Virus record (IMG/VR): IMGVR_UViG_3300025818_000007
Location: 1 to 36,529 of that record
DNA length: 36,529 nt
Direction: 5' to 3' (one strand)
DNA from: a virus
Both the position numbers and the translations under genes were made by a program. The notes beneath the pieces are model-generated. The model had not been told where the DNA came from. It did no database searches and was given only the letters and a program-made list of their open reading frames with translations. Shown here piece by piece: positions 25,921-33,684 of the stretch (its first letter is position 1; each line of letters opens with the position of its first letter).

Positions 25921-27897
25921 ATGAAATACACAACACTACCCATGATTGACAACAATCCAACCGCTTCTTTGGATCGCTCGTATCGAAACATGCACCCTCT
26001 CCAATACTGCCGAGAGATCTACTTCAACGCAGTTGAGGCGGGGGCCACCTTCGTGAGAGTTCGACCAGTCAATGGCATCAAGATGGCTTGGTGCGATGAT
26101 GGTCATGGGATGAACCCACAAGACCTTCTCAGGTTGATCAATGGCCGCAACTCCTCATCTAAGTCAGTCGAGGGTCATCATGGGAACTTTGGTATTGGCC
26201 TGAAAGACTCAGCGCTAACCCCCAATCCTTATGGCTTGGTCATCGTATCTAAGACAGCAGAGAAGCCGATGGGCGGCATGATCTGGCTACATCAGAGAGA
26301 TGGTGTGTCAGGCGCTCAGGTTCTCATCTCTGAAGAGATGCGCCGAGACTTCTGCTCAACTCCTGACCATGCTGATGACTTCGCCGCTGAGTATCTGCAG
26401 GATCTCTACTCAGTTGATTTTGAGTGGGTCCAGAATGAGTTTGGCCATGAGAGCTTCACGATTGATGGCGTTGATTGGATGCACCTCTTCAAGAAGTGCA
26501 GCGCCAACACCATCGTCGTCTTGATGGGTGAGTATGCAAACTCGGTGACTTTTGACACTGATGCTGCGAAGTTTCATAAATTCTTTGGAATGAAGTTGTC
26601 TCATATGCCTATCCGCATGTTGATACCTACTGTTAGTAATGATCGAGAGGCTCAGATAAAGTGGCAAAAAGTTAACACCTTATCTGAGTTGAGTTGTCCA
26701 AGCTTCAATCAGGAGTTCAAAGGCTTTAAGATCACAACGTATTTGAAACCGAAGACTTCAAAAAAAAATAGCAGAGATGCTGGTATCATGGATGGTAAAC
26801 GTTCTTTCATCAGCGGTATCAAATACAAAAATGAGATATTTGATTACACTGATACAAACGCAATGGCCAAACATTGGGGGCTATACTATGCTGAGGTGTA
26901 CAAGCGAGTGATCATCATGGTGGAGCCACCACTGATGGATGAAGATACAGGGATTGGATGCTATCCTGACAGCGAGCGTCAAAACCTTTTATACTCTGAT
27001 CCTCGCCTTAACATTATAAAGGCAAAAATCGAAGTAGTGCTTAATGAGGTTAAAGATTGGTATATCAACAATATGCCTGAGGAGCTGCGCCAGCTAATCA
27101 ATACAGAAGTCCAAAAGACATTAGAGCATGTCGAGAAATCAAAAAAGATCTCACAGTTCAGAAAGTTCTTTAAGGCTCCAAAGGTTGAGCGAGCTTCTCA
27201 GATTAATGTCTACGGTGACTTGTATATTTTGAACGAGTCAGGCAGTGACAACGCCACAGAAGGTTCAATCATCGATGATCTTTTCAAGCGACGTAATAAC
27301 CGTTTGAACCCACCACAACCATCAGCCAAAAAGGACAAGTCAGAAGCAGGTAATCCACAGAATAAGAGTGGTAAAAAAGGCGGGGATACTGCGGCGAATC
27401 GTCATGATGAAAGACCAAGCCCTAAAGATGCCTCTGTTGTCTTCGTCAATCCTCAAACTGAAGCTTGGCCAACTTATGAGTCCTTGGCTCAGTCTGAGAG
27501 AGGTGGCCTGTTCCCCTTTGTATATACCGGTATTCGGCGCGGTGATAATGTCAATGTGATCTATGTCAACACAGATTCATCAATCATCACAGCTCTTATC
27601 AGATCGGCGCTCGGTTGGGTCAACAAACGTGGTTCAGCCAAAATGGACATGTCAGAGTTGGAAGTCCTTGAGGCTCTTGTTAAGCCGTTCATCAGAGATT
27701 TTATGCCGGTGTCCCTGGCTCATCTAAACGGCGACAAAGACAAGATTAAGCTCGGTATCACCGTAACAGATCCGGTCGCCATCTATGCTATGTTTCATGG
27801 TACATGGCAGATTCACATGAATCTTCATGAGTATTATGAAGCGCACCGTAACCGTGTTTTATCTCCATCTGCTGAGGAAGATAATGAAAGAAACTAG
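25921..27897 (+). CDS. GHKL-type ATPase (Hsp90/MutL/MORC-like N-terminal domain), unknown role
   Basis: The 658-residue protein has the three nucleotide-binding motifs of the GHKL fold: the N box REIYFNAVEAGAT (Glu32 as general base, Asn36 for Mg2+), the G1 box CDDGHGM (Asp59, Gly61, Gly63), and the G2 box GNFGIGLKDSA (88-98). The spacing and the VEAGAT/DDGHGM wording are closest to MutL and MORC ATPases, not histidine kinases. Residues 200-400 may be the transducer domain, and about 445-510 is a Lys/Pro/Ser-rich linker (PPQPSAKKDKSEAGNPQNKS) before a C-terminal domain of about 150 residues I do not recognise. It may act as a DNA clamp or conformational switch in replication, repair or counter-defence. 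DNA from about 26540 to 27350 is visibly richer in A+T than the neighbours, hinting at separate origin. Confidence 0.82.
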   Translation: MKYTTLPMIDNNPTASLDRSYRNMHPLQYCREIYFNAVEAGATFVRVRPVNGIKMAWCDDGHGMNPQDLLRLINGRNSSSKSVEGHHGNFGIGLKDSALTPNPYGLVIVSKTAEKPMGGMIWLHQRDGVSGAQVLISEEMRRDFCSTPDHADDFAAEYLQDLYSVDFEWVQNEFGHESFTIDGVDWMHLFKKCSANTIVVLMGEYANSVTFDTDAAKFHKFFGMKLSHMPIRMLIPTVSNDREAQIKWQKVNTLSELSCPSFNQEFKGFKITTYLKPKTSKKNSRDAGIMDGKRSFISGIKYKNEIFDYTDTNAMAKHWGLYYAEVYKRVIIMVEPPLMDEDTGIGCYPDSERQNLLYSDPRLNIIKAKIEVVLNEVKDWYINNMPEELRQLINTEVQKTLEHVEKSKKISQFRKFFKAPKVERASQINVYGDLYILNESGSDNATEGSIIDDLFKRRNNRLNPPQPSAKKDKSEAGNPQNKSGKKGGDTAANRHDERPSPKDASVVFVNPQTEAWPTYESLAQSERGGLFPFVYTGIRRGDNVNVIYVNTDSSIITALIRSALGWVNKRGSAKMDMSELEVLEALVKPFIRDFMPVSLAHLNGDKDKIKLGITVTDPVAIYAMFHGTWQIHMNLHEYYEAHRNRVLSPSAEEDNERN

Positions 27898-28105
27898 ACA
27901 AACTAGACAAACAACGCGCGCGCGCGAGGCAGACTTTCATCGAATCATGAAAGAGCTTGATCGACTCTTGGTGTTGCGCCTCGAGGAACAACTTGACCTC
28001 AGTGACCCTGATGACCTCAATAAGTATAATGAGGCCAAAACTCTAAGAGATCACATCAGGGAGACTTTGAAGGATGCCAAAGCAGTCAACCAAACGAGAC
28101 GCTAA
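27884..28105 (+). CDS. Small charged helical protein, 73 residues
   Basis: The start ATG 27884 overlaps the ATPase stop by 14 bases and follows GAGGAAG; a longer frame from 27827 lies wholly inside the ATPase gene and is less likely. The product is very rich in Arg, Lys, Asp, Glu and Thr (MKETRQTRQTTRAREADF; RLLVLRLEEQLDLSDPDDLN) and should form one or two long helices. It overlaps the small terminase start by 32 bases. No family is recognised; it could be a partner of the ATPase or of the terminase. Confidence 0.5.
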   Translation: MKETRQTRQTTRAREADFHRIMKELDRLLVLRLEEQLDLSDPDDLNKYNEAKTLRDHIRETLKDAKAVNQTRR

Positions 28106-28508
28106 GCGCAAAGAGAAGCGCGAGAAGCTACTCGACAACCTGAGAACAGGGATGAGCGTTGAAGCCGCTTGTACCCAAAGCTCTATCAGTCGCGCCACTT
28201 ACTATCTATGGATAGAAGAGGATGAGGAGTTTGCTGAAGAGGTGGAGGCTGCCAAAGACTTCAGTGAGGCTGTCTTGCTCGAGTCCATCAGATATCAGGG
28301 CGAGGCTAAACAAGACTGGCGCGCAGCTGCTTGGATACTCGAGCGCCGCTTTCCTGATCGATGGGGCGCTAAACGAGAGGTCGACGTCAATGTCAACAAT
28401 ACCACCAACGAGACTGATGATATCATCATCAGCATGATCGAGCAGATCGCTAAGCCATATCAGGAGGTCACCGATGACACAGCAGACAGAGAAGAAGCAG
28501 ACGACTAG
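28074..28508 (+). CDS. terS: Terminase small subunit
   Basis: The 144-residue protein should recognise the packaging site and hand DNA to TerL. A basic N terminus (MPKQSTKRDAKRKEKREK) precedes a helix-turn-helix: LRTGMSVEAACTQSSISRAT, YYLWIEEDEEFAEEVEAAKD. The phrase DWRAAAWILERRFPDRWG (about residues 81-98) is common in this small-terminase class. The end is acidic (DDTADREEADD) as expected for oligomer and TerL contacts. It lies two genes before TerL. The unusual point is a 91-residue gene inserted between the two subunits, overlapping this gene by 35 bases. Confidence 0.8.
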   Translation: MPKQSTKRDAKRKEKREKLLDNLRTGMSVEAACTQSSISRATYYLWIEEDEEFAEEVEAAKDFSEAVLLESIRYQGEAKQDWRAAAWILERRFPDRWGAKREVDVNVNNTTNETDDIIISMIEQIAKPYQEVTDDTADREEADD

Positions 28509-28749
28509 GATCTACCTCAAGCGCTCGTGGTCGCGCTATGCCTCTCATGAGCGTGAGGATTATCAGATTCATGGATGGCATCGGCTCATCTGCTGTGAAG
28601 ACCTCAGTGAGCCTCATCTGACCATCTACCACGATAGCCTTGATGTGGTGGTGGGTGCTAAGGTGAGCGTGATTAAGGTGGGTCAAGATAAGGTCAGGAT
28701 CGAGGAGAGGTGGCGCGTGACCGACAGAGGGCTAAAGTTGGATGATTAG
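28474..28749 (+). CDS. Unknown protein between terS and terL, 91 residues
   Basis: This product has a charged N terminus (MTQQTEKKQTTRIYLKRSW) and a beta-rich remainder (HLTIYHDSLDVVVGAKVSVI; DKVRIEERWRVTDRGLKLDD). No family is recognised. It overlaps terS by 35 bases and terL by eight, so all three are probably translated together, which suggests an accessory packaging or packaging-regulating protein. A separate frame on the opposite strand here is a shadow. Confidence 0.5.
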   Translation: MTQQTEKKQTTRIYLKRSWSRYASHEREDYQIHGWHRLICCEDLSEPHLTIYHDSLDVVVGAKVSVIKVGQDKVRIEERWRVTDRGLKLDD

Positions 28750-30106
28750 GCTCAACGAGCTCCAGCATGGGATCATCTCTCGTATCGCTCGCAGTGAGAG
28801 AATCATAGCGGCGCGGTGTGGGTGGGGATCAGGTAAGACCTCGGCGCTTGTCTTCGCTCTGCTGTTCATCTCTCGATTTAGACCTGGCACCTCTAGCCTT
28901 CTCGTCACCGACACGAACCCACGCTATAACTCAGTATTGATGCCTGAGATGGAGAAGTGGCTGAGTAAGCTGGGGTGGACTTACAACCACACTCTAAGAC
29001 AGTGGTCAGCGCCTAATGGCTCAACTGTGTGGTGTCGCTCGTATTATAGGCCAGGGACGAGAGACGCCACCCATAACCCGCTCGAGGGGCTCAACATCAC
29101 CTCGGGTGTCTGCCTCATCGATGAGTGTCAGACGCTCTCAGCAGAGGTGGCTCATAAGGCGATGGGTCGATTGAGAGCGGGGCCGAGCCCCATCATGATC
29201 CTTGTGGGTCTGCCGGTGTCCGGCGCTTGGTGGTGTCAGCTAGCAGAGGAGGCGAGCTGTCAACCTCTCCTGTTTACCTCATACGTGAACGCAGCCAACC
29301 TCTCCTCGGAATGGTTCGAGGCCACTAAGCTTCTGCCTCAGGCTGAGCGTGAGGCTATGGTGATGAACAAGCCAAGGCCACCCTCAGGGCTCATCTATTC
29401 TGAGTTCGATGAGTCGCGCCACGTTATCAGCGGTTGGAAGTATAAGCCGACCATGAGTGGGCGTATCGCCATTGACTGGGGATTCAGGAAACCATCGGTG
29501 TTGATTATCGTGCATGATGATGAACTTGGCGCCGATGTGATCTGCGCTGAGATCAACCCACAAGAGGTGACCACCTCTCAACTAGCCACCCTCATCTTAG
29601 CTGTGGCGTGGCCGCGCTCGTTGAGGAGCTCCGCACCAGCTGAGAGGATATGGCTAGATAATGGGGTAGCTGACAAGGCGGGGCGAGCGCGAAATGATCA
29701 GACGGGGCGCTCAGCCTTCCGAGCAATGAGAGGGAATCCACCTCATGGGCTCGGCTTACCTCTGAGGTCGAACACTGACCCCATCAGGACAGATATCTTA
29801 AATGGGATTCAGCGATTGAAGAGGGCCTTTGCTCGAGGTCAATATCTGATCACTCGTGAAGTGTGGGATGCAGGCGAGCGCGCTCTTGGGAACTCAATCA
29901 GGAAGGCGATCATGAGCTATGGATGGGACAACAAAGAGCAGCCAAAGAAGGATGGGAGAGAGGACCCTCTTGACGCCTTGAGATATGACTGCATAACGTG
30001 GAACTGGTCTGACTCGCTAGTCGATCAGCGCAATTATCAACCACGAGCGACAGCCCCCAAGGACCGCCGAGTCAAGGTAGGCGGCGCTAAGACAAGAGGC
30101 TTCTAA
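28742..30106 (+). CDS. terL: Terminase large subunit
   Basis: The 454-residue packaging motor cuts DNA and pumps it into the capsid. Residues 27-34 are the Walker A (GWGSGKTS), residues 123-128 the Walker B with catalytic Glu (VCLIDE). The nuclease domain shows RIAIDWGFRKPSVLII (Asp near residue 246) and the closing motif REDPLDALRYDCITW near residue 415. Length is typical. A Lys/Arg-rich end (RRVKVGGAKTRGF) may reach the portal. Its stop overlaps the thyX ATG by one base. Packaging type (cos or headful) cannot be told from this sequence. Confidence 0.93.
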   Translation: MIRLNELQHGIISRIARSERIIAARCGWGSGKTSALVFALLFISRFRPGTSSLLVTDTNPRYNSVLMPEMEKWLSKLGWTYNHTLRQWSAPNGSTVWCRSYYRPGTRDATHNPLEGLNITSGVCLIDECQTLSAEVAHKAMGRLRAGPSPIMILVGLPVSGAWWCQLAEEASCQPLLFTSYVNAANLSSEWFEATKLLPQAEREAMVMNKPRPPSGLIYSEFDESRHVISGWKYKPTMSGRIAIDWGFRKPSVLIIVHDDELGADVICAEINPQEVTTSQLATLILAVAWPRSLRSSAPAERIWLDNGVADKAGRARNDQTGRSAFRAMRGNPPHGLGLPLRSNTDPIRTDILNGIQRLKRAFARGQYLITREVWDAGERALGNSIRKAIMSYGWDNKEQPKKDGREDPLDALRYDCITWNWSDSLVDQRNYQPRATAPKDRRVKVGGAKTRGF

Positions 30107-30789
30107 TGAAGATTTATGCAGATGATATCGGTGAGGTTCGGTACGTATCACACATGGGTCACGACTCAACGCCAGCTCACTCGGCGCGGGTGAGCTTCTA
30201 TGATGCGACCACTAGCAGCCGCCTACATGTGACAGCTCGTGATGTGTCGCTGATTAAATACCTCGCAAGGCATGGCCACACCTCACCCTTTGAGCACTGC
30301 AACGCTACCCTCAAAATCACCTGTCCTCTGTTCGTTAGATCTCAGATTATGCGCCATAGAACCTTCTCTTATAATGAGGTGTCGAGGCGTTACACATCTG
30401 AGAGGTTGCAGTTTTGGGTGCCCTCAGCGCTCAGAGGTCAGCACGAGAAAAGTCTACAGTGTTCATCTGAAGAGGTCGTTGAGGAATCCGAGCACTGGCT
30501 TGAGTGTTGGCGCAAGCACAGCGAGAACTGCCAGATGTTCTATGAGCTGATGATTGCTTCTGGTGTCGCTCGAGAGCAAGCGCGCGCCATCCTGCCTCAG
30601 TCGCTCTACACCCACTTCTGGATGAGCGGAAACCTTAACAACTGGGCTCGATTCCTGAGGCTACGCTTAGACCCTCACAGTCAACCTGAGACGAGAGCTG
30701 TGGCTGTGGCAGCTCGTGATATACTCATGAAGCATTTCCCTGTTTCGTTGGGCGCTCTGCTCGGTGACTTTGAGGAGGTAGACCATTGA
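30106..30789 (+). CDS. thyX: Flavin-dependent thymidylate synthase
   Basis: The 227-residue enzyme makes dTMP from dUMP using FAD, NADPH and methylene-tetrahydrofolate. The ThyX signature RHRxxSxNExSxRY is intact (residues 83-96, RHRTFSYNEVSRRY). Upstream SPFEHCNATLKITCPLFVRS and downstream SGVAREQARAILPQSLYTHF followed by NNWARFLRLRL are also family blocks, including the Arg-rich substrate-binding region. It probably raises thymidine supply for phage DNA. It starts one base into the terL stop and its own stop overlaps the next ATG, so it is expressed with the packaging genes, which is an uncommon place for a nucleotide-metabolism gene. Confidence 0.95.
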   Translation: MKIYADDIGEVRYVSHMGHDSTPAHSARVSFYDATTSSRLHVTARDVSLIKYLARHGHTSPFEHCNATLKITCPLFVRSQIMRHRTFSYNEVSRRYTSERLQFWVPSALRGQHEKSLQCSSEEVVEESEHWLECWRKHSENCQMFYELMIASGVAREQARAILPQSLYTHFWMSGNLNNWARFLRLRLDPHSQPETRAVAVAARDILMKHFPVSLGALLGDFEEVDH

Positions 30790-30950
30790 TGTATGATGAC
30801 GAAGACGAAACAATCTGCGGCAGTTGTGGACTGGTTCAATGTATTTGTGACATCGAATATGAACATGACTGTGAGAGCGAAGACTGCGACTGTGGCGTTG
30901 ATTGTTCATGTTGCATCAATGAACGATGTAACTGTCAGTGTGGAGAGTGA
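30789..30950 (+). CDS. Cys-rich acidic microprotein (metallothionein-like composition)
   Basis: A 53-residue frame starts at ATG 30789, sharing its A with the thyX stop (TGATG), and ends TGA 30948-30950, three bases before the cyclase ATG. Thirteen of 53 residues are Cys, at 10, 13, 18, 20, 28, 33, 35, 39, 41, 42, 47, 49 and 51, giving CxxC, CxC and CC motifs; most other residues are acidic (MYDDEDETICGSCG at the start). CxC and CC spacing with no aromatic core is typical of metallothioneins; the CxxC-start could also be a small zinc-ribbon-like peptide. Soft-metal binding is thus likely. Stop-start coupling and lack of a competing gene support reality. Frames on the opposite strand here are shadows. 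Confidence 0.68.
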   Translation: MYDDEDETICGSCGLVQCICDIEYEHDCESEDCDCGVDCSCCINERCNCQCGE

Positions 30951-30953
30951 GCC

Positions 30954-31733
30954 ATGAAGATCAGAGAGAGGAGGCTTGCCATAGTCCTCCTCGATCTCAT
31001 CGGCTCAACTCAGTTCGTGCAGAAGGTGGGCGCTGTCAAGGCGGCGCGGTGGCTTCAGTATCATGATCGCCTCACTCGCTCTCTCATGTATCGCTTCTCA
31101 GGCAGAGAGATAGATAGGTCTGATGGATTTCTGCTGAGCTTCGAGGAACCTATCAACGCGGTAAACTTTGCGCTTCATTATCAGCTCTCCATACCACCAC
31201 GAACCCGCCTCAATACTCGCGTGGGTGTGCATGTCGGCTGTATCGCTGAGGTAACACAGCATGAGCTTGATGTGATGGTGGGTGCTAAGCCTGTGGAACT
31301 GGAAGGCATCGCCAAGAATATCGCGGCGCGCACTATGAGCGTTTGTGGCCCTGGTCAGGTGCTACTCACAGAGGAGGCGTTCAAGGAGATTCGAGGCCAT
31401 ACAAACAGCATGACACCCAAGGGGACAAGATATGTCATGGTTGGCCTCTATCGATTCAAGGGTGTTAAAGAGCCTCAGGTCCTCTATGCTGTCGGCTCAC
31501 GCATCGAAGCCCTCCAACCACCTCCGAGCAGTGAGAAGGCCAAGAGACTTGGAGGGCCTAAGCGGGTGAGGTCGCGCGCTCGAGATCGCAAGGTGAAAGA
31601 GTGGTTGAGCTGGGCGCTGCCTAGATGGGCCTTCATCAATATCATTTACATCGTCTGCCTGATGTGGCCTTGGTTGACTCACCAGCTCCCCATCATCTTA
31701 GAGATAGTGAGGTTCATCTATGGAGAAGAGTAA
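30954..31733 (+). CDS. Class III nucleotide cyclase with C-terminal membrane anchor
   Basis: The 259-residue protein has a complete class III cyclase homology domain (residues about 6-190): LAIVLLDLIGSTQF with metal Asp14, RSDGFLLSFEEP with second metal Asp57, RVGVHVGCIAEV, and NIAARTMSVCGPGQVLLTEE with transition-state Asn122 and Arg126, then YRFKGVKEPQVLYAVG. The positions that select purine substrates look altered: where adenylyl and guanylyl cyclases have Lys (or Glu) there is Ile53/Asp54, and the partner Asp is Glu115. A basic linker (KAKRLGGPKRVRSRARDRKV) precedes a membrane segment near residues 225-245. It should make a 3',5'-cyclic nucleotide (base not known) at the membrane. The next gene overlaps by 14 bases. 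Phage genomes rarely carry this enzyme, so a signalling or defence role is possible. Confidence 0.85.
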   Translation: MKIRERRLAIVLLDLIGSTQFVQKVGAVKAARWLQYHDRLTRSLMYRFSGREIDRSDGFLLSFEEPINAVNFALHYQLSIPPRTRLNTRVGVHVGCIAEVTQHELDVMVGAKPVELEGIAKNIAARTMSVCGPGQVLLTEEAFKEIRGHTNSMTPKGTRYVMVGLYRFKGVKEPQVLYAVGSRIEALQPPPSSEKAKRLGGPKRVRSRARDRKVKEWLSWALPRWAFINIIYIVCLMWPWLTHQLPIILEIVRFIYGEE

Positions 31734-32196
31734 AAGTGAGAGAGAGGTGACGAGCGAGATTAAAGCGCGGCGCGGGTGGTGGTTCAGCGTCTTCTTCATG
31801 ATGCTCGTCGTCTTCCTGATCCTCTTCTTGACCTATGTTGAGATTGTCGAAAAAAACCGTGATGTGTTGGTGGGGATCTTGGGGATGATAACGGGGTCAA
31901 TCTCCTCAATGATGGCTATCGCCTCAGGTCGCGACCCATCAGAGGTGGAAGAACTAAAAGATAAATTATCTTCAGCCAACGCTGATAGAGAAGCGCTCAT
32001 CGCTCGCCTCAGAGATGCGCAGATTCAGATGCAACTATTAAGAGAGCAGATACATGAGCTGCAGACGGCAGTGATCGATAAGCTCTCTATCTTCGCCGGT
32101 GATCACCCCATCAAAACCAAAGATGAAAACTCGGTCATCCTTCATCCATCGGTGGAAGAGTGGCTCCCTCACAGTGGGCTAGACAAACAAAAGTAA
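31720..32196 (+). CDS. Two-TM coiled-coil protein paired with the cyclase
   Basis: The 158-residue protein has a short basic cytoplasmic start, TM1 at about residues 20-42 (GWWFSVFFMMLVVFLILFLT), a short turn, TM2 at about 49-68 (VLVGILGMITGSISSMMAIA), and then a coiled coil (about 73-125, EVEELKDKLSSANADREALI) and a soluble tail. It overlaps the cyclase by 14 bases, so the two are co-translated. A membrane protein beside a cyclase fits a cyclic-nucleotide effector of the Pycsar TM type, but I see no cyclic-nucleotide-binding domain, so it may instead be a holin-like pore or a partner that holds the cyclase. Function open. Confidence 0.65.
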   Translation: MEKSKSEREVTSEIKARRGWWFSVFFMMLVVFLILFLTYVEIVEKNRDVLVGILGMITGSISSMMAIASGRDPSEVEELKDKLSSANADREALIARLRDAQIQMQLLREQIHELQTAVIDKLSIFAGDHPIKTKDENSVILHPSVEEWLPHSGLDKQK

Positions 32197-32213
32197 AGCG
32201 TTTATTATTGGGT

Positions 32214-32247
32214 CGAGTATTGATGCGCTCCATTTGGAGAAAGTGAG
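32214..32247 (+). promoter_or_regulatory. Two-copy leader element, copy 2 (before portal)
   Basis: The sequence CGAGTATTGATGCG is followed by hairpin CTCC-ATTT-GGAG (32228-32239) and AAAGTGAG, 24 bases before portal ATG 32272. Compared with copy 1 at 25880, the flanks are conserved (one change) and the stem has changed on both sides so that pairing is kept. The next gene has its own ribosome site (GAGGAG, 32261-32266). This hints at a shared promoter or RNA-level control of two unrelated genes. Confidence 0.65.
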
Positions 32248-32271
32248 GAAACCACCCCAAGAGGAGCATCT

Positions 32272-33684
32272 ATGCACGATCACACTGAAGAGCGTGAGAC
32301 TCGACATTTTAGAGCGCTCTCACCTCGGTTTAGAACGCGAGGCATCACTGGTACTCAGATCAGTGGTGGGGTGATCACGGGCAAGGAACAGAACGCTCAA
32401 CTCACCGGCCTCAACTGGGTGCAAGAGGCTGAGGAGATGTTGAGAACTGACCCCATTGTCAGGCGCTCATGGCATATGCTCAGGCAGACTCTTCTCTCTG
32501 CCGCTTGGCGATTCGAGCCAGGGATTAAAGATGATCCTATCGCTGAGGAGCTCGCCCGATTCGCTAATGAGGCTTGGGGCTTCGATGGATACTCAGGTCA
32601 GATGTCGATCAGTTGGGAAGATCAACTTGCTTATCTCTTTGAGTTCGTTCCTTTGGGTTATCGATACGCTGAAGAGATCTACAAGGTAGGCCCTGACTCA
32701 AAAGGTGAGGTCAAGGTCTGGCTATCTCATTACGCCGACCGCGAGCCAAGCGCTCATCAGAAGTGGCTGAGTCGAGACGCTCAGCAGCTCGACGGGGTGA
32801 TTCAGAACACAGTAGGCATCACCTACACTCCTGAGCCCATCCCTGCCAACAAGCTACTCTTGCTCACCCTCAACAAGACCGGTTCAAACTTTGAGGGCGT
32901 CGGGATGCTTCGTCCTGTTTGGTGGTGGTGGCGTACGAAACAGAGGGTGGCTAACCTCATGTGCGTTGGCCTCGATAGATGGGCCGTTCCATCTCCAAAG
33001 GTTGTGGTGGATCGCTCTCAGGCTGAAGCGCTCGGTTTATCTGATGGTGACATTGACGCGATGATTGATGATGCAGAAGCTCAAGCAAGAGCTTTCATCT
33101 CAGCAGAGCAGAGCTATCTAGTAGAGAACGCCGCTGTTAAGTTCGACACCTACGCAGCCACTCCGAATCTCTACGCTGATGGTCCCATCAATATCATCAC
33201 TAAGTGTGATAGCCAAATAGCAGCCGCCTTCCTCACTCAGTTTGCCGACCTCGGGAACACCGAGACAGGAGCGCGCTCAGTTGGTGAGATTCATCTCTCT
33301 GTCTTCAGACGAGCTGCAATCAACCTTTGCGATCTAGTCGCTTCAGCTGTAAGTGGAGTGGATCGCCGAGGCGCTGGCACTATAGGCCGCCTCATTAGAT
33401 GGAACTATGGCGCGGTTGATCCTTCTAAGCTACCTCGCCTCACCCACACCGGCCTCGATACTGATGACTTGGCTGAGTCACTCGGCATGTTGCCAGGTCT
33501 AGTCCAAGCAGGGTTACTCACTCCTGATGATGAGCTCGAGCGAGCAATCAGGGAACGACTCGGCGCGGGTGTATTACCTGATGAAGCTGAGCGCTCACCC
33601 ATCTCAAGAGTCTCAGCTGTGGGTGGTGGTGGCTCAGTCTCAGCGCTCGCTGAGCAGCTCATCAGGAGGCGCCGAGATGGTTAA
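32272..33684 (+). CDS. Portal protein (Mu gp29/DUF935-like)
   Basis: The 470-residue protein forms the dodecameric DNA channel at the capsid vertex. It has the DUF935/Mu gp29 style: TDPIVRRSWHMLRQTLLSAA, WRFEPG, then LLLLTLNKTGSNFEGVGMLR followed by PVWWWWRTKQRVANLM, and a C-terminal ESLGMLPGLVQAGLLTPDDE. The pattern of KLLLLT..K.G..FEG.G.LRP..WWW..K is diagnostic. Its gene starts after the two-TM gene and leader element 2, so it could have its own promoter. It ends eight bases into the protease-scaffold gene. Confidence 0.88.
   Translation: MHDHTEERETRHFRALSPRFRTRGITGTQISGGVITGKEQNAQLTGLNWVQEAEEMLRTDPIVRRSWHMLRQTLLSAAWRFEPGIKDDPIAEELARFANEAWGFDGYSGQMSISWEDQLAYLFEFVPLGYRYAEEIYKVGPDSKGEVKVWLSHYADREPSAHQKWLSRDAQQLDGVIQNTVGITYTPEPIPANKLLLLTLNKTGSNFEGVGMLRPVWWWWRTKQRVANLMCVGLDRWAVPSPKVVVDRSQAEALGLSDGDIDAMIDDAEAQARAFISAEQSYLVENAAVKFDTYAATPNLYADGPINIITKCDSQIAAAFLTQFADLGNTETGARSVGEIHLSVFRRAAINLCDLVASAVSGVDRRGAGTIGRLIRWNYGAVDPSKLPRLTHTGLDTDDLAESLGMLPGLVQAGLLTPDDELERAIRERLGAGVLPDEAERSPISRVSAVGGGGSVSALAEQLIRRRRDG

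Follow-up and report, generated by a model that had tools for sequence, protein, structure and literature searches.

The window examined here, by which we mean the whole 36,529-nt stretch of IMGVR_UViG_3300025818_000007, carries a cysteine-rich microprotein gene wedged between thyX and a nucleotidyl cyclase gene. The features of this locus are as follows.

30106..30789, plus strand: thyX, flavin-dependent thymidylate synthase (Pfam PF02511, Thy1, E 2.3e-48; PHROG 85)
30772..30778, plus strand: Shine-Dalgarno-like GAGGAGG within thyX, read from the sequence, 10 nt 5' of the ORF ATG
30789..30950, plus strand: Cys-rich acidic microprotein gene, 53 aa with 13 Cys; conserved family under purifying selection in frame
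30810..30848, plus strand: N-terminal four-Cys knuckle, residues 8-20 (T-I-C-x2-C-G-x3-C-x-C), a predicted mononuclear Cys4 metal site
30864..30935, plus strand: C-terminal 8-Cys/1-His module, residues 26-49, a predicted metal-thiolate cluster; invariant in 16/16 family members and absent from a sister clade
30954..31733, plus strand: class III nucleotidyl cyclase-like protein with a C-terminal hydrophobic segment, directly 3' of the microprotein open reading frame (ORF)

A preliminary description of this DNA had proposed an unlisted ORF of 53 residues, 13 of them Cys, that is coupled to the thyX stop and fills the space before the cyclase gene. Its translation agrees. The ORF ATG begins at 30789, the last base of the thyX TGA (30787-30789), giving a 1-nt TGATG overlap, and the stop at 30950 lies 3 nt before the cyclase ATG at 30954. 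The CxxC, CxC and CC spacings ascribed to the product, hereafter the window protein, are all found in it. The statement that most other residues are Asp or Glu was too strong, as these account for 16 of the 40 non-Cys residues. The window protein has two aromatic residues, both Tyr, and an acidic N-terminus with no signal peptide evident by eye. RNA structure across the thyX/ORF junction is ordinary (z -1.06), and promoter-like and terminator-like sites in 28000-32500 barely exceed those of shuffled sequence.

The same arrangement recurs in relatives. Where the full-length gene occurs, the order is TerL-thyX or thyX-dCMP deaminase, then the ORF, then the class III cyclase, and gene overlaps are tight on both sides of the ORF in most of them. 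One locus, L015, has a methylase-like ORF in between, recognised by script from a DPPY-type motif; the motif script failed to recognise thyX in L375, and likewise the cyclase in L116, L134, L135, L375 and L376.

Conservation and selection in the microprotein family

The microprotein ORF is a protein family rather than a chance reading frame. Scanning IMG/VR with the window peptide returned 10 loci, and further members came from thyX, alignment, pattern and cyclase scans. A gathering script that required both modules yielded 22 full-length DNA sequences that differ from one another, that of the window among them, and a form with the knuckle only contributed 8 distinct sequences. These relatives mark a genuine conserved gene.

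Alignment of 16 of the 18 distinct full-length proteins (A3; L116 and L173 omitted), which are 43-66% identical to the window protein, leaves Thr8, Cys10, Cys13, Gly14, Cys18, Cys20, His26, Cys28, Cys33, Cys35, Gly36, Cys39, Cys41, Cys42, Cys47 and Cys49 invariant. When 20 of the 22 DNA sequences are aligned by codon (L024 and L116 omitted, L173 included), the 12 core cysteines are Cys in every sequence, and 11 of the 12 columns use both TGT and TGC. Cys51 of the window protein is the only one of its 13 cysteines outside this core.

The reading frame is under purifying selection. The comparison of synonymous and non-synonymous change that had been proposed for relatives gives pN/pS of 0.24-0.30 between the window and its four close relatives (L003, L004, L008, L010). 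Other pairs give 0.29 (L038-L046), 0.15-0.17 (L134 group; L134-L135 0.15) and 0.07 (L097-L173). Four pairs among the most diverged reach 0.47-0.59, with their synonymous sites close to saturated. All such pairwise counts are mutually non-independent. Within the window group of five DNA sequences, variable sites fall 5/5/17 by codon position over nt 1-75 and 2/5/21 over nt 76-159, a third-position excess in both parts (binomial p 0.0015 and 7.8e-6). The corresponding pN/pS values are 0.20 (nt 1-78) and 0.14 (nt 76-159).

Outside IMG/VR, neither the window protein nor its L038 relative had a tblastn match in 50,697 phage records with the low-complexity filter on. A search of GTDB genomes with alignment A1 gave 45 pattern stretches, none of them confirmed, a result that leaves absence from cells unproved. 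The DNA pattern of the C-terminal module proved too loose for this purpose, with at least 120 matches in the viral scan and at least 120 in the genome scan; most of the matches listed are GC-repeat shadows, as sorted by script. Small Cys-rich proteins at three loci (L133, L254, L261) have the tail pattern because the scan selected for it, lack the knuckle and match no Pfam model, and we claim no kinship for them. The gene thus represents a selected orphan family of microproteins, metallothionein-like in anatomy and carried by uncultured phages, and as such a new accessory family. Microproteins shorter than 60 aa between core phage genes escape annotation.

Predicted metal binding

The window protein combines two cysteine modules. 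The N-terminal knuckle has the family consensus C-x2-C-G-x3/4-C-x-C, with its four cysteines and Gly14 invariant in all 16 aligned members, and it is also present in 5/5 aligned sister-clade proteins (A4). The C-terminal module follows the pattern H-x-C-x4-C-x-C-G-x2-C-x-C-C-x4-C-x-C and offers nine potential ligands. The general features of metallothioneins are there: a short chain, dense CxC, CC and CxxC clusters (13 Cys in 53 aa) and few aromatics. Metal-thiolate binding is likely the best reading of such a protein, and the cysteine spacing, conserved His and low hydrophobicity fit thiolate clusters rather than disulfides.

We propose the following model. The TGATG overlap and the Shine-Dalgarno-like stretch suggest that the peptide would be made by translational coupling to thyX. 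Cys10, Cys13, Cys18 and Cys20 would form one tetrahedral ZnCys4 site, while His26 and Cys28, 33, 35, 39, 41, 42, 47 and 49 could hold roughly three divalent ions in a small cluster, the number of ligands, nine, being that of the M3Cys9 clusters in known metallothioneins. Together these sites would bind about four Zn per chain. The microprotein gene would close a block of nucleotide-synthesis cargo in which several relatives also carry dCMP deaminase, a zinc enzyme. The most likely role of the microprotein would be to hold or supply zinc or another soft metal during infection, which is a guess and the weakest step of the model. Protection of ThyX by the microprotein, an earlier suggestion, is pure conjecture. 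On balance, we lean towards an accessory phage gene whose small cytosolic product binds metal and is built on a metallothionein-like plan.

The earlier term "metallothionein-like" holds for the richness and spacing of the cysteines, but not for family membership: none of the 16 members matches a metallothionein family model in Pfam at E up to 10. This includes the bacterial model PF02069, which is also unmatched anywhere in the window record, whereas a positive control, SmtA, matched it at E 3.9e-21 (75.4 bits). In 94 bacterial genomes used as comparison material, PF02069 gave only matches below cut-off, in two genomes. The window protein itself had no match in Pfam or PHROGs, and 0/16 members matched any profile of Pfam, NCBIfam or PHROGs at E up to 10, zinc-finger families among them, in searches where HMMER composition filters could hide very weak matches. 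Structural searches were similarly empty. A PDB profile search with A1 gave nothing at E up to 10, and with A3 only two ribonuclease K6 entries at chance level (E ~0.35); AlphaFold2 on A3 lends no structural support (mean pLDDT 52.8, pTM 0.21). PADLOC reported nothing relevant among the neighbouring genes. No phage metallothionein was found in the literature searched, which covers subscription journals thinly; a Pseudomonas phage paper names metallothionein only in a table of bacterial genes (PMC3974807), and PMC6509639 and PMC13065082 offer nothing relevant. With no family-model match, the window protein is therefore not assignable to any metallothionein family described so far, but its way of working may be the same.

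Bacterial metallothioneins are described as binding 3-4 Zn and containing a GATA-type zinc-finger fold (PMC10612145). The window protein resembles the SmtA/BmtA type in size, in its density of Cys with some His and in having no obvious export signal, but it differs in Cys order, strong acidity, phage origin and failure to match PF02069. The same text gives, as solved or proposed layouts, ZnCys4 plus Zn2Cys5His2 for the plant protein MacMT3 and a zinc-finger-like site plus Zn3Cys9 for the betaE domain of wheat Ec-1 (PMC10612145). These too would pair an independent ZnCys4 or finger-like site with a Cys/His cluster, a likeness of layout only; the Pfam scan found no sequence match. Finally, the C-x4/5-C-x-C-x3-C-x-C of Neurospora-type fungal copper metallothionein, compared by eye, resembles C28-C41 of the window protein, but that protein is 26 aa long, lacks the N-terminal knuckle, CC and His, and shares no Pfam model.

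Should the family bind metal, it would be a phage metallothionein-like family outside every model searched and tied to nucleotide synthesis, and phage management of intracellular zinc during infection would become testable.

The sister clade and competing readings

Eight loci (L012, L013, L014, L340, L347, L355, L359, L363) form a sister clade with a 51-aa ORF at the equivalent place. This ORF overlaps the thyX stop by one base where the junction was read, and the cyclase starts 3 nt past its stop. The knuckle is still there (DLDETxCAxCGRxxCxCE) but the 8-Cys module is not, which gives a natural comparison of one locus with and without the cluster module.

The sister clade bears on a refutation named in the preliminary description, namely relatives in which the frame is broken while thyX and the cyclase stay intact. 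The frame is broken in none of the eight, but the 8-Cys module is missing from all of them; all eight retain the cyclase, and thyX too where checked. The Cys-rich half is therefore dispensable in some relatives. At a wider scale, the best 80 of 183 cyclase loci comprise 19 with the full-length gene, 8 with the knuckle only and 53 with neither form within 1.5 kb upstream, counted with crude regular expressions and including some loci with short upstream DNA. A thyX-like motif lies within 3.5 kb upstream in 28 of these 53, and 17 of the 28 also show a deaminase motif by equally crude expressions, so the microprotein is not needed for thyX. The most widely kept part of the family is the N-terminal knuckle. 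That the sister clade keeps it and loses the cluster module is unexpected for a pure metal buffer, and weakens the idea of an essential one.

The knuckle could instead make the protein a zinc-knuckle adaptor, a takeover or regulatory peptide whose partner is a protein or nucleic acid of host or phage, with the tail a secondary extension. The knuckle alone is common to full-length and sister proteins (16/16 and 5/5), pN/pS over nt 1-60 of the sister frame 0 is 0.21, and T-x-C-x2-C-G-x3/4-C-x-C-[DE] also occurs within unrelated larger viral proteins in pattern scans, a likeness by construction. But the tail is present in 22/22 full-length sequences and in the window group is selected as strongly as the knuckle (0.14 versus 0.20), and no known zinc-finger family matches. 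We regard this adaptor role as unlikely, though worth serious thought.

A peptide devoted to thiol redox or rich in disulfides, such as an exported toxin-like peptide or an antioxidant, would also keep many cysteines, and the core count of 12 is even. Yet the acidic start shows no signal peptide by eye, the His is invariant, adjacent CC and CxC pairs are ill-suited to a defined disulfide fold, and the gene sits within a cytosolic nucleotide-synthesis block; we think this improbable. Still less credible is a coupling spacer whose translation only ferries ribosomes from thyX to the cyclase: the close overlaps with both neighbouring genes in most relatives would suit it, but 12 cysteines kept despite synonymous turnover contradict a mere spacer. 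Least credible of all is that the real gene is the +1 frame (30793-30957, 54 aa, with a hydrophobic stretch) and the Cys-rich frame its shadow, for although +1 is open in the window, hydrophobic throughout the family and selected in the sister clade, in the window group it has a pN/pS of 7.7 over nt 76-159, where frame 0 has 0.14, and is cut by stops in L003, L004, L008 and L010, which contradicts this reading there.

In the sister clade, selection has moved to the +1 frame. Frame 0 has a pN/pS of 4.7 over nt 71-153, where the +1 frame has 0.38. By parsimony, 48 substitutions fall 28/17/3 by frame-0 codon position; in +1 terms, 28 are at third positions and 3 at second. Among 2000 neutral simulations, on a tree from the 8 sister loci with 0.6-0.7 kb flanks plus the region itself, two gave a +1 ratio as low, and none did so while also lacking +1 stops. 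The sister +1 ORF starts with an ATG at nt 71, with GAGG 5' of it in 8/8, and ends 24 nt into the cyclase gene in 7/8 (30 nt in L363); an example is L014:5757-5869 (+), 37 aa, with equivalents in the other seven loci. Its product of ~37 aa, MSI(A/V/T)TLIVISI..VNV(V/I)AS(V/I)W..., is a predicted one-helix membrane microprotein with a 19-residue hydropathy mean of 2.67-2.80. In the full-length sequences the +1 frame is hydrophobic in 22/22 (best 19-residue Kyte-Doolittle mean 1.45-3.03), because frame-0 TGY reads as GYN (Val/Ala) in +1.

How the sister clade arose can be read in two ways. Local alignment of its C-terminal DNA to the full-length module gave p <0.05 in 6/20 cases (300 mononucleotide shuffles each; best L012 versus L003, p 0.003), a similarity weak enough that the module may have been replaced by recombination. 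Loss of the Cys module would be the simpler reading, because the full-length form is found across several lineages that are more diverged (thyX at 69% identity or less), though it is made without a supported family gene tree.

We tentatively raise the possibility, while not expecting it, that the gene serves as a cradle from which new membrane proteins arise: every metal-binding copy would carry a latent hydrophobic +1 frame, and the sister clade would be a case of overprinting. GAY TGY read one base later gives Ile/Thr and Val/Ala. The metal-cluster half of the sister gene would have lost its cysteines while the knuckle survived, and +1 would have become a selected membrane microprotein. As a candidate for overprinting, the case is one where Cys codons of the parent frame may predispose +1 to span membranes; if true, close relatives would show the before and after of a gene birth in which the parent module was lost.

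The cyclase and its surroundings

Cargo in the interval from TerL to the cyclase varies: the slot may be empty or carry thyX, dCMP deaminase, methylase-like ORFs or further small genes, with variants seen for example in L015, L388, L407, L416, L417 and L442. Many uncultured phages conserve the cyclase itself between their terminase and portal genes (183 confirmed stretches); it had no tblastn match in 50,697 phage records. A profile of its alignment A2 matches PDB 1ybt at 2.8e-11, the closest solved chains being mycobacterial-type cyclases; Pfam Guanylate_cyc reaches only 0.0075, below cut-off. The thyX product is less than 60% identical to every phage record, and relatives of the portal, at ~25% identity, come mostly from Gordonia and Arthrobacter phages.

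After the cyclase, the product of 31720-32196 has a hydrophobic N-terminus and a weak SLATT_fungal match (5.5e-5, below cut-off). A cyclase beside a SLATT-like membrane protein recalls cyclic-nucleotide signalling pairs, and a holin is as likely. Further upstream, 25921-27897 encodes a 658-aa protein with a HATPase_c_3 (GHKL) domain (3.6e-6), which is unusual upstream of terminase genes.
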